Source: Marinomonas sp. SBI8L
GTDB taxonomy: Bacteria > Pseudomonadota > Gammaproteobacteria > Pseudomonadales > Marinomonadaceae
Direction of reading: 5' to 3'
Length of the DNA: 64,000 bases
Assembly: GCF_001624705.1 (NCBI RefSeq)
Contig: NZ_JSEO01000003.1
Span: forward strand, 124,001 to 188,000
This document shows, piece after piece, positions 24,747 through 27,162 of the stretch. The position numbers were made by a program, and so were the translations under genes. Every line of letters begins with the position of its first letter. Within the stretch, counting starts at the first letter, position 1. The notes under the pieces were generated by a model. That model was not told the DNA's origin, did not search any database, and worked only from the letters and a program-made list of their open reading frames with translations.

Positions 24747-25757
24747 ATGTTTAAGTCTTTTTTTCTTAATAAGAAGTGGCTGCTTTGGTCATTATTTGGC
24801 TCGATTTTGATCTTGGGCGTGACCTGGTACAAGGTACAGCTAGATGTGCAAATTAATGAATGGTTTGGTGATTTTTATAATACGTTACAGCAGGCATTAG
24901 CTGAGCCAAACAGTGTTTCGCTAGAAGAGTTTATTAGTAAGTGTTTTACCTTTGCAAAAATTGCGGGTTTGTACGTTTTTATTGCTGTGATGCTTGGTTT
25001 CTTTGTTAGGCATTATATTTTTCGCTGGCGTACGGCGATGAATGAATATTATATGAGCCATTGGCAGAAACTACGTCATGTAGAAGGTGCTGCTCAGCGT
25101 GTGCAAGAAGATACCATGCGCTTTGCTAGTATTATGGAAGGGCTAGGTGTTGCTTTTATTCGTTCGATTATGACGTTAGTCGCGTTTTTGCCTTTGTTAT
25201 GGGTATTAAGTGAAAATGTGACCGAGTTACCTTATTTTGGCCCAGTGGATCATTCATTGGTTTATATTGCCATCTTATCTGCGTTATTTGGTACTGTGCT
25301 CTTAGCTGCCGTTGGAGTGAAGCTACCTGGATTAGAGTTTAAAAATCAAAAGGTAGAAGCGGCTTATCGAAAAGAGTTAGTTCTTGGTGAAGATAATGAT
25401 GATAGAGCGGATCCGCCAACGGTCAAAGAACTCTTTACTCATGTTCGTAAGAACTACTTTAACCTGTATCTGCACTATATGTATTTTGATGTAGCTAAAT
25501 GGTCTTACTTGCAATTTACTGTGCTAATTCCCTATATAGCGATGGCGCCTACCATAGTTGCGGGGGCGATTACTCTTGGGTTATTGCAGCAAATCTCACG
25601 AGCGTTTGGACAAGTAGAGAACTCTTTCCAGTTCCTTGTTAACTCTTGGAGTACTATTGTTGAATTGATTTCTATTTATAAGCGTCTGAAAGCATTTGAG
25701 TCGATTATCCATAATCAAGAGCCTGCGGGTGAGGATGCTGTTTCTTCTCAACCATAA
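24747..25757 (+). CDS. sbmA: SbmA/BacA-family peptide transporter, short form
   Basis: The core matches E. coli SbmA strongly: 'FRWRTAMNEYYMSHWQKLRHVEGAAQRVQEDTMRF' (split here by family motifs), 'GVKLPGLEFKNQKVEAAYRKELV', 'PPTVKELFTHVRKNYF' and 'NSWSTIVELISIYKRLKAFE'. The family is a proton-driven importer of peptides and peptide antibiotics in the inner membrane and has no ATPase domain. At 336 residues it lacks roughly the first 70 residues of E. coli SbmA (406), including its first membrane segment. The visible ATG falls just before the second segment and the upstream DNA is a short structured leader, so the gene looks natively short, not broken. Confidence 0.85.
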   Translation: MFKSFFLNKKWLLWSLFGSILILGVTWYKVQLDVQINEWFGDFYNTLQQALAEPNSVSLEEFISKCFTFAKIAGLYVFIAVMLGFFVRHYIFRWRTAMNEYYMSHWQKLRHVEGAAQRVQEDTMRFASIMEGLGVAFIRSIMTLVAFLPLLWVLSENVTELPYFGPVDHSLVYIAILSALFGTVLLAAVGVKLPGLEFKNQKVEAAYRKELVLGEDNDDRADPPTVKELFTHVRKNYFNLYLHYMYFDVAKWSYLQFTVLIPYIAMAPTIVAGAITLGLLQQISRAFGQVENSFQFLVNSWSTIVELISIYKRLKAFESIIHNQEPAGEDAVSSQP

Positions 25758-25765
25758 ATTTTAGA

Positions 25766-25799
25766 CAAAAAAAACCGGGCAAACCTAGGTTTGCCCGGT
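25766..25799 (-). terminator. Terminator of the predicted small RNA
   Basis: A perfect 26-base palindrome (25774-25799; arms ACCGGGCAAACCT / AGGTTTGCCCGGT) is followed on the minus strand by an eight-U run. On the plus strand it has no T tail, so it is built for minus-strand transcription, although the hairpin could also slow RNA polymerase leaving the sbmA-like gene. Confidence 0.85.
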
Positions 25800-25942
25800 A
25801 ATACAAAAGTAACTAGCAGTTGCCTGGTAAAAATGCATGTGGGTCGCATTCTTACCTGCCAAACTATGTCTGTGGGGGCATAATTTGGCCAGATAAAAGC
25901 AGTTAGGGCTGCTTTTATCAATCTCGATCAGATCGAGAAGAT
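25767..25942 (-). ncRNA. Predicted structured small RNA, divergent from a GcvA-type LysR gene
   Basis: Read on the minus strand, about 175 nt form a series of stem-loops. They are an 8-base palindrome (25922-25938), a perfect 11-base stem (25892-25902/25909-25919, loop CCCTAA), a 10-base stem (25859-25868/25879-25888, loop CCCCCACAGA) and an 11-base stem (25826-25836/25846-25856, loop GACCCACAT). A single-stranded stretch and a terminator follow. The one irregular pair in each of the last two stems is a G-U wobble on the minus strand but an A-C mismatch on the plus strand, which fixes the RNA strand. No open reading frame of note lies inside. I do not recognise the RNA. The C-rich loops suggest pairing with G-rich ribosome-binding sites of target mRNAs. 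Confidence 0.7.
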
Positions 25943-25948
25943 GTTCGT

Positions 25949-25976
25949 ATTTTAGGTATTTTTAAGCTAACTACAA
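25949..25976 (-). promoter_or_regulatory. Predicted promoter of the small RNA
   Basis: On the minus strand a -35-like TTGTAG (25971-25976), a 16-base spacer and a -10-like TAAAAT (25949-25954) predict a start near 25942, just ahead of the first stem. Both boxes deviate from consensus, as expected for an activator-dependent promoter. Confidence 0.5.
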
Positions 25977-25990
25977 ACGATATAAATTAA

Positions 25991-26020
25991 TTTTTAGCAT
26001 TAGCTGTGCTAATCTAAAAA
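25991..26020. promoter_or_regulatory. LysR-type box between the small RNA and the LysR gene
   Basis: ATTAG-CTGTG-CTAAT (25999-26013) fits the LysR T-N11-A motif and is embedded in a larger near-palindrome with arms TTTTTAG and CTAAAAA. Its centre is about 64 bases upstream of the predicted small-RNA start, where LysR activators usually bind. The CTAAT half-site is also the core described for GcvA in E. coli. Confidence 0.6.
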
Positions 26021-26220
26021 TCACTTCTGTTTGAAAAATCTATTTTTTATTAAATTTTGATAAATCATTATTTTAAAGTTTAAAGTTCTTTAAAATATAG
26101 GTTTTGTAGTATCTATATCTGGCACTTTTGTAATAATTAATGATTTTAATGAAGGCTTTATGTTTTTCTTTCATGTTTTTAGTGTAGATCACCTAAGTAT
26201 AAATTGGAGAGTTTCTTACA

Positions 26221-27162
26221 ATGCGCCAACTTCCATTAGCCACACTCTTCACTTTTGAGGTTGCTGCTAAGCATCTGAATTTTACTAAAACGGCTGAAGA
26301 GCTTCATATCACTCAAGGTGCTGTCAGCCAGCAAATACGTCAGCTTGAAGAAAGAATAGGATTCAAGTTATTTGAGCGCTATCACAGGCGTTTAACCTTG
26401 ACTTCAGAAGGGGCTAGATTAGCGTTACAGCTCAATCATAGTTTTACTGAAATAGACTCGCTACTGACAGAGCTAAAAGAAGATAAACAATCTAATATTC
26501 TTACCTTATCCGTTATGCCTTCTTTTGCGAGTAAGTGGTTAATTCCTAGGCTAGGAGATCTACAAGCTGCATATCCTGATATGCAATTGCGGATACAGGC
26601 TAATGATAAAGAAGTAAATTTTGGTCGCGATAGGGTAGATGTTGCTATTGTTCATAGCCACCTTTATAAAGGGGATGATTTTCAGGTTCCTCTGATCAAG
26701 GATAAAGTCTTCCCTGTATGTAGCCCAGATTTTGCTAAACAGCATAAACTGTTTGAACCTCAGCAATTAGTTGGTCTCCCCTTATTAAATGATGATTCAG
26801 AGAGCCGCTTTAGTACGCCATATGTGGAGTGGGAAAACTGGCTGCAAAAAGCCAATGTGAAAGGTGTTAAGCCGTCTCGTGCTATTAGCTTTAACCGTGG
26901 CGACCTTGCCATACAAGCTGCTGTGGCGGGGCAAGGGGTGGCATTAGGTCGTACCCCTTTAGTCATGGATGATATTCAAAGTGGACAACTCATTAAGCCA
27001 TTTTCTGCAGAGTTAGACGATGGCTTGAGTTACTTGTTTGTCTGTCCTCAAGCGCAAAGTTTGCGCCGAGAGGTAAAGGACTTGCTTATCTGGTTATTGC
27101 AGAGTTGTCTTGAATACGAGCCAGAATCAACTTTAACCTCACCCTCGGCATTTACAGACTAA
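26221..27162 (+). CDS. LysR-family transcriptional regulator, GcvA-type
   Basis: The 313-residue protein begins with the winged helix-turn-helix 'LPLATLFTFEVAAKHLNFT' and 'ELHITQGAVSQQIRQLEE', in the form seen in GcvA and its paralogues, followed by a periplasmic-binding-like effector domain. It is divergent from the predicted small RNA at 25767-25942, with a LysR box in between. In enteric bacteria GcvA activates the sRNA GcvB from the same layout, so this protein most likely controls that RNA and itself. Its stop codon overlaps the convergent TSUP gene by four bases. The effector is unknown. Confidence 0.88.
   Translation: MRQLPLATLFTFEVAAKHLNFTKTAEELHITQGAVSQQIRQLEERIGFKLFERYHRRLTLTSEGARLALQLNHSFTEIDSLLTELKEDKQSNILTLSVMPSFASKWLIPRLGDLQAAYPDMQLRIQANDKEVNFGRDRVDVAIVHSHLYKGDDFQVPLIKDKVFPVCSPDFAKQHKLFEPQQLVGLPLLNDDSESRFSTPYVEWENWLQKANVKGVKPSRAISFNRGDLAIQAAVAGQGVALGRTPLVMDDIQSGQLIKPFSAELDDGLSYLFVCPQAQSLRREVKDLLIWLLQSCLEYEPESTLTSPSAFTD

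Follow-up and report, generated by a model that had tools for sequence, protein, structure and literature searches.

A putative LysR-activated small RNA of Marinomonas with ilvD and gltB as predicted targets

Marinomonas sp. SBI8L appears to possess a LysR-activated, base-pairing small RNA (sRNA) that is fairly likely to repress ilvD and probably gltB. The gene lies within a window of 64,000 nucleotides (the whole stretch of contig NZ_JSEO01000003.1 that was analyzed) and is divergent from a gene for a LysR-type regulator (Table 1). It is almost certainly a real sRNA gene linked to LysR. The conservation of the RNA, its structure, the layout of the promoter, the linkage to LysR, and the complementarity to mRNAs are found in the sequence itself. 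From these we infer that the RNA is transcribed, that LysR activates it in response to a signal or ligand, that Hfq takes part, and that the regulation runs in the direction of repression. The new feature is a predicted CCCACAG loop that is complementary to the ilvD ribosome site in all 41 Marinomonas genomes that carry the RNA.

If this is true, the pair is a convergent regulatory circuit, in which the same kind of regulator stands beside an unrelated RNA with similar targets. The defined seed and the predicted targets are open to direct test, and the eight genomes where neither the RNA nor LysR was found are a natural experiment. In addition, a covariance model is offered for an RNA that falls below every Rfam release 15 cut-off as searched.

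Structure and Conservation of the RNA

Table 1. Features of the predicted sRNA gene, its promoter, and the divergent regulator. Positions are those of the window; the sRNA is read from 25942 to 25767.
Feature	Position	Strand	Evidence
LysR-type regulator, GcvA/DsdC-like, presumed activator	26221..27162	plus	profile matches; orthologues in 41 of 49 genomes
LysR-type box ATTAGCACAGCTAAT	25999..26013	minus	TTA-N7-TAAT at the same place in 40 of 41
Conserved element TTATATCGTTTG; its TTG starts the predicted -35	25974..25985	minus	found with at most 2 changes in each of 41
Predicted -10 hexamer TAAAAT	25949..25954	minus	TANAAT at fixed offset, 40 of 41
Small RNA gene, about 176 nt, predicted ends	25767..25942	minus	fold; 41 of 41 LysR loci; covariation
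Hairpin 1, 5' end; that of the window species differs from most relatives	25922..25938	minus	fold and alignment
Hairpin 2, loop CCCUAA, flanking pairs GCCCUAAC	25892..25919	minus	fold; 7 of 8 pairs changed on both sides
Hairpin 3, carries the invariant loop CCCACAG	25858..25889	minus	fold; 10 of 11 pairs changed on both sides
Seed 1, CCCACAG, hairpin 3 loop	25870..25876	minus	41 of 41; mean unpaired probability 0.82 over the 41
Hairpin 4, second C-rich loop	25826..25856	minus	fold; 5 of 7 pairs changed on both sides
Seed 2, CCCACAU in the window, hairpin 4 loop	25837..25843	minus	second CCCACA in 33 of 41; mean unpaired probability 0.83
Linker CUGCUAGUUACUUUUG, 5' of the terminator, strongly conserved	25804..25819	minus	alignments
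Intrinsic terminator, 11-pair stem and T run	25767..25799	minus	terminator scan; T run invariant in 41 rows

The original prediction described a run of strong stem-loops ending in a terminator, and the fold bears this out. The minus strand from 25766 to 25942 folds at -71.2 kcal/mol, compared with a mean of -37.96 (sd 4.32) for 200 shuffled sequences, none of which was as good (z -7.69). Four hairpins are followed by the terminator, divergent from the GcvA-like LysR gene. The terminator (25799-25774) has 11 pairs, a 4-base loop, and then seven T, and it is the sole terminator-like site in 25700-26300, where 0.4 would be expected. Open frames were also explored. No ATG is present 5' of the hairpin 3 loop in 21 of the 41 RNAs; frames from such an ATG are shorter than 20 codons in 11, run off the end in seven, and reach 20 codons in two. 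A closed frame of at least 20 codons from any ATG, GTG, or TTG is present in 25 of the 41, positions having been compared only for ATG before the hairpin 3 loop.

The same RNA was read upstream of the LysR orthologue at all 41 Marinomonas loci. In a DNA search of 38 genomes, matches were obtained in the genome itself and in 10 other Marinomonas, mostly in the box and the stretch behind it. Two alignments were used. The first, A1, holds 28 of the 41 RNAs and is the basis of the covariance model R1 and of the pair counts; it omits L020, which is nearly identical to L017, and 12 rows from L043-L054 that are mostly divergent. The second, A2, holds all 41. A check on homologous spacers had been proposed, and these were found to contain the same RNA with strong covariation. 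In A1, 35 pairs are predicted, 26 of them with a double-sided change in at least one sequence. Paired cells make up 93.9% compared with 81.8% in shuffles, cells with double changes number 109 compared with 25.4, and on each of five measures all 500 shuffles fell short of the observed value; related sequences may exceed shuffles without structure, and the pair-count and type-count measures, which are safer, both also lay above all shuffles. When partners were slid by 1 to 3 columns in A1, pairing fell to 33.5-44.8%, a comparison that penalizes the slid versions when the structure derives from the same alignment, as it does here. For A2 the prediction gives 24 pairs, of which 22 show double changes, with a larger number of broken cells.

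It could be argued that these are chance hairpins around a plain terminator and have no function, since the claim of an RNA rests on sequence and its promoter was missed by a generic scan. With the covariation and the presence of the same RNA at 41 of 41 LysR loci, this explanation is hardly credible. The longest run that is invariant in the 41 RNAs, the T run aside, is CCCACAG in hairpin 3. The other invariant columns are AGTT in the linker, CC in hairpin 4, and two single columns.

Promoter and LysR-Type Regulator

As would be expected of a trans-acting base-pairing sRNA, the gene has a promoter of its own, recognized by conservation only, and an intrinsic terminator. The predicted start and promoter rest on comparison because a generic sigma-70 scan gave three promoter-like sites (2.4 expected) and the sRNA promoter was not among them. 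The comparison was anchored on TTATATCGTTTG, allowing up to two changes, at 41 loci. The single exceptions to the fixed TTA-N7-TAAT and to the fixed TANAAT are different rows. The center of the box lies about 64-65 bases upstream of 25942. An unanchored reading puts it 64 bases from the predicted start in 38 of 41 rows; in the window locus (L014), L023, and L036 this reading caught another motif.

GcvA sites contain CTAAT, and a LysR box spelled ATTAG-N5-CTAAT had been placed near -64. A box of the T-N11-A type is indeed conserved at a fixed spacing in 40 of 41 loci, but this spelling is one variant of it, found strictly in 17 of 41; ATTA(A/G)-N5-CTAAT is found in 34. Thus, the layout is that of a LysR protein and its divergent target, with a box near -65 (40 of 41) and a second element near -35 (41 of 41). 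This element, TTATATCGTTTG, probably serves as the activation half-site for LysR. It is very likely that LysR activates the RNA.

The box and element together were sought in 17 genomes with up to three mismatches. They were found at the sRNA promoter in 13 of 13 LysR-bearing genomes and in none of the four LysR-less ones. In 12 of the 13 they are confined to this promoter, and the LysR protein seems nearly dedicated to it because the combination is found almost nowhere else. One genome, G010, has a further site (L115, about 1500-1545) with the exact TTATATCGTTTG upstream of a short open frame, and this may mark a further gene of the regulon. A second match in G009 shares bases with the same box but runs in the opposite orientation. 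Seven divergent rows have the center of the box 22-24 bases away from the start codon of LysR, and a box in this place would also suit self-repression by LysR.

The neighboring regulator had been called GcvA-type. It is GcvA-like and divergent, but at 279.3 bits it falls below the cut-off of 288 of the GcvA model NF008352 and is the seventh best GcvA match of its own genome, in which three other proteins pass the cut-off. The orthologue of G024 scores 294.8 bits, above the cut-off. The protein of Marinomonas sp. MED121 is 93% identical to that of the window.

Distribution in Marinomonas

Orthologues of LysR were sought in 49 Marinomonas genomes at E up to 1e-90 and were found in 41 of them. 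The R1 covariance model matches the same 41 genomes. An order-wide R1 search of 293 genomes gave 17 matches, 12 of which are Marinomonas; because nine candidates were scored per genome under strict filters, weak relatives could have escaped it, and about three matches are expected by chance at the threshold used. The five matches outside Marinomonas (E 0.00045 to 0.0045) were rejected, as none has CCCACA and none has a LysR relative within 3 kb (tblastn, E 0.001). A second, weak match in G045 (C99; L117, 1502-1690 minus) was set aside. It ends in a terminator and is without CCCACA, and tblastn with the window LysR was empty at E 0.001. A frame next to this match looked LysR-like by eye. As far as searched, the RNA appears to be a Marinomonas family.

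The eight genomes without the RNA and LysR are scattered on a tree of ilvD DNA, a single gene, where they amount to eight changes, at least six of them forced by starred branches. Since the RNA and LysR are adjacent, a single deletion or a single assembly gap is enough to take out the two together. Assembly gaps are a poor general explanation because seven of the eight genomes are at least 99% complete. The eight were also searched for CCCACAG followed by TAGTTAC at 36-64 bases, a pattern that is not exhaustive in that it misses the known RNA of G010; the one match (G019) looked coding-like by eye.

The neighborhood on the other side of the RNA was compared in the 41 fetched loci. GAPDH is present in 35 of them. 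In the window genome, a gene for an SbmA-like transporter (24747-25757, plus) lies between GAPDH and the RNA. SbmA was rejected as a partner since sbmA is present in only two of the 41 loci, the other being that of G056.

Predicted Targets

The CCCACAG sequence is present twice in 28 of the 41 RNAs. In all 41 RNA-bearing genomes it is complementary to TGTGGGG at the ribosome site of ilvD. The seven columns of TGTGGGG are invariant in the 41 ilvD leaders, and the neighboring columns range from 0.37 to 0.93, GGGG having served as the anchor. The longer CTGTGGGG precedes ilvD in only 28 of the 41. Scans for targets covered ATG starts and exact CTGTGGG. When CTGTGGG(A/G)A-N1-14-ATG was sought in 12 genomes, one string, CTGTGGGGAAAA(T/C)AATG, recurred in 11 of the 12, and this is the start of ilvD. 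The remaining strings are each shared by two to four genomes at the most, and the ones that were read are gene-internal. This pattern gave 71 matches compared with 61 for its reverse, and CTGTGGG-N3-13-ATG gave 452 matches in 10 genomes compared with 323. There is little excess overall, and the reversed pattern is a rough control because it is without ATG.

The main result against ilvD as a target is that six of the eight RNA-less genomes retain TGTGGGG before ilvD, five of them with the full CTGTGGGG. It is lost in G043 and G020, both RNA-less, a coincidence with a probability of 0.024 when relatedness is left out of account. On the ilvD tree, where the median is 0.21 changes per column, the RNA-less genomes that keep TGTGGGG sit on end branches of 0.38 to 0.76. 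The retention implies that the losses are recent or that something else also holds the sequence. The RNA could therefore be a real LysR-controlled sRNA whose main targets are other mRNAs, with the TGTGGGG/CTGTGGGAG sites of ilvD and gltB kept because they bind the ribosome or serve another regulator; the scans near ATG were confined to exact CTGTGGG. We consider this unlikely. TGTGGGG was found in none of 24 readable ilvD leaders from other genera (36 genomes with an ilvD match, 28 loci fetched) and at none of 47 gene-like starts within the window, and the two genomes that were fully examined share ilvD and gltB. Since the site is present across the genus and in none of the 24 other leaders, it appears to have arisen with or near Marinomonas.

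Taken with the complementarity, ilvD is a likely direct target of the RNA. The window genome is an exception in its spelling. There, the ilvD sequence is CATGTGGGG and the loop of hairpin 4 is CCCACAU, and the pairing is restored as judged by eye. For the window species and for G056, pairing with the ilvD leader is longest in the linker, over 10 bases, and not in the loops; the loop pairing, CAUGUGGG, was read by eye. The best RNA-ilvD duplex is weak (-14.4 to -16.8 kcal/mol) in G017, G023, G014, G044, and G048. The linker was tried as a seed and rejected. A 12-base complement of it occurs outside the RNA gene three times in 15 genomes, the two places that were read have no common gene, and no conserved site complementary to the linker was found among these genomes.

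Glutamate synthase is another possible target. Matches to CTGTGGG-N3-13-ATG were listed completely for G008, G046, and G009, and all places were examined in G008 (37) and G009 (51), the RNA gene itself included. The rule for a start was at least 60 codons from the ATG and an in-frame stop no more than 40 codons upstream, with final judgements made by eye. The gene starts so judged are ilvD, gltB, and an FAD-linked oxidase in G008, and ilvD, gltB, and a TRAP transporter dctQ gene in G009; ilvD and gltB are thus common to both. The gltB and dctQ sites are also in G046, which places the gltB site in three of the three fully listed genomes, a comparison made within Marinomonas. The gltB gene was named by NCBIfam and dctQ by Pfam. 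The RNA and the gltB leader can form 11 pairs in a row, one of them G-U, in G009 and nine in G046; in G008 the longest pairing run is outside the loops. On balance, gltB is probably a direct target as well, with somewhat less assurance than ilvD. Complementarity to mRNA starts is conserved, therefore, for ilvD (41 of 41) and gltB (three of three), the ilvD site being shared with the six RNA-less genomes.

Other places with the motif were also noted. The dctQ start reads CTGTGGGTA(C/T)TTTAATG in G009 and G046 (L356 2178; L355 1093), and dctQ is a possible third target. At the start of the FAD-linked oxidase of G008, a protein with a 4Fe-4S domain, the motif reads CTGTGGGATTTTTATG (L358, about 1873-1885 minus); this was seen in the one genome only. 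Three further G009 places, L324, L337, and L338, were flagged by the start rule and were not judged to be gene starts by eye. L337 has its start further upstream, and L324 falls inside a longer frame in a different phase. L338 is a frame of 90 codons. The recurrent CTGTGGG...ATG strings besides those of ilvD, gltB, and dctQ were set aside, as those that were read lay in coding frames or before short frames.

Proposed Mechanism

Judging by the promoter layout and the seeds, LysR would activate the RNA when bound to its ligand, and one or both loops would cover the ilvD and gltB sites. The divergent LysR protein would bind at about -65 and -35 and activate the sRNA promoter. The signal to LysR is probably an amino acid or a related metabolite. 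The trans-acting RNA would then present CCCACAG in one or two hairpin loops. These loops could pair with the ribosome-binding site of ilvD, which encodes dihydroxy-acid dehydratase, and block translation. They would probably pair likewise at gltB, which encodes the large subunit of glutamate synthase. With the signal present, both the synthesis of branched-chain amino acids and the supply of glutamate would be expected to fall. Synthesis of branched-chain amino acids needs IlvD and the glutamate made by GltB, and so joint repression in times of amino acid plenty would make sense.

Comparison with Known Systems

At the gathering cut-offs of Rfam release 15, no family was over cut-off in the RNA region of the window, and none was over cut-off in 10 relatives. 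This agrees with the expectation that the spacer would not match a known RNA family. Looser matches (L20 leader at E 0.05, TarB, FsrA, SorX, SorY, PrrF, and others) are unconnected and far below the cut-offs, and were taken as chance. The sole Rfam match over cut-off in the window is a 6S RNA (RF00013, 62688-62865 minus, 102.6 bits). No description of the Marinomonas RNA was found among the open-licence PMC texts searched.

OxyR is a LysR-type regulator of oxidative stress that activates a divergent gene for the sRNA OxyS. The Marinomonas pair resembles it in having a LysR-type regulator with a divergent sRNA gene, and it differs in that OxyR is an oxidative stress regulator and the RNA is a different one. 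The C-rich sRNAs of Staphylococcus aureus offer another likeness. In RsaA, a C-rich sequence pairs with the Shine-Dalgarno region of an mRNA and the RNA is Sigma B-dependent (PMC3961350). The C-rich sequence and the pairing at the Shine-Dalgarno region are alike. Unlike the Marinomonas RNA, RsaA belongs to another phylum and depends on Sigma B, and its family gave no Rfam match here.

Other RNAs have been published from Marinomonas. CsrB and CsrC of M. mediterranea are sRNAs with intrinsic terminators, as is the present RNA, but they are described as having ANGGA/AGGA motifs, binding CsrA, and being under PpoS/PpoR with a GacA box (PMC8523701). An nqrA leader motif has been described as well (PMC11109978). 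By these descriptions, neither CsrB/CsrC nor the nqrA leader motif is the Marinomonas RNA. The sponges bear on the possibility that the RNA acts on a protein or on another RNA, as a sponge or in the manner of 6S, through its repeated C-rich loops and not on mRNAs. The doubling of CCCACAG in most of the RNAs and the compact chain of hairpins would suit a repeated protein site. This is nonetheless improbable, as no Rfam family was over cut-off and the loops carry CCCACAG where the CsrA sponges carry ANGGA/AGGA.

The closest comparison is with GcvA/GcvB of the enterics and vibrios. The seed of GcvB is G/U-rich and unstructured. The conserved stretches of the Marinomonas RNA are CCCACAG, GCCCUAAC, and CUAGUUACUUUU, which are not of this kind, and the statement in the original prediction that the G/U-rich seed is replaced by C-rich loops holds with CCCACAG invariant in 41 of 41. 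GcvB gave no match at gathering in the window, none up to E 10 in 25700-26100, and none up to E 5 in 10 relatives. GcvB was also sought by Rfam beside the three best GcvA matches of the genome itself, and no match was present in 28.5 kb. In E. coli, gcvB is divergent from gcvA and is activated by GcvA (PMC1557403). The same layout beside a GcvA-like LysR gene would be consistent with a highly diverged GcvB. However, the empty GcvB searches and C-rich loops that are the opposite of the GcvB seed make this very improbable.

As a working analogy the gcvA/gcvB comparison holds, and the predicted target ilvD strengthens it. In both systems an sRNA gene is divergent from a GcvA-like LysR gene, although the window LysR lies at the edge of the GcvA model and below its cut-off, and the RNA has C-rich loops and no GcvB covariance match. 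The ilv genes also fall within the target field of GcvB in Vibrio alginolyticus. In a gcvB mutant of that species, ilvC, ilvE, and ilvD mRNA were slightly raised by qRT-PCR and were not significant in the transcriptome (PMC9409037). The Marinomonas RNA looks like a functional counterpart of GcvB that is not GcvB by covariance search. The full form of this reading is that the Marinomonas circuit evolved independently of GcvB: a GcvA-like LysR would have come to control an unrelated RNA of opposite seed chemistry, with twin CCCACAG loops silencing ilvD and gltB, an ilvD site remodeled to TGTGGGG for such control, and the regulator and RNA lost as a unit. We hold this full form tentatively, at a little under an even chance. 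It would make the Marinomonas pair an independent counterpart of GcvA and GcvB.
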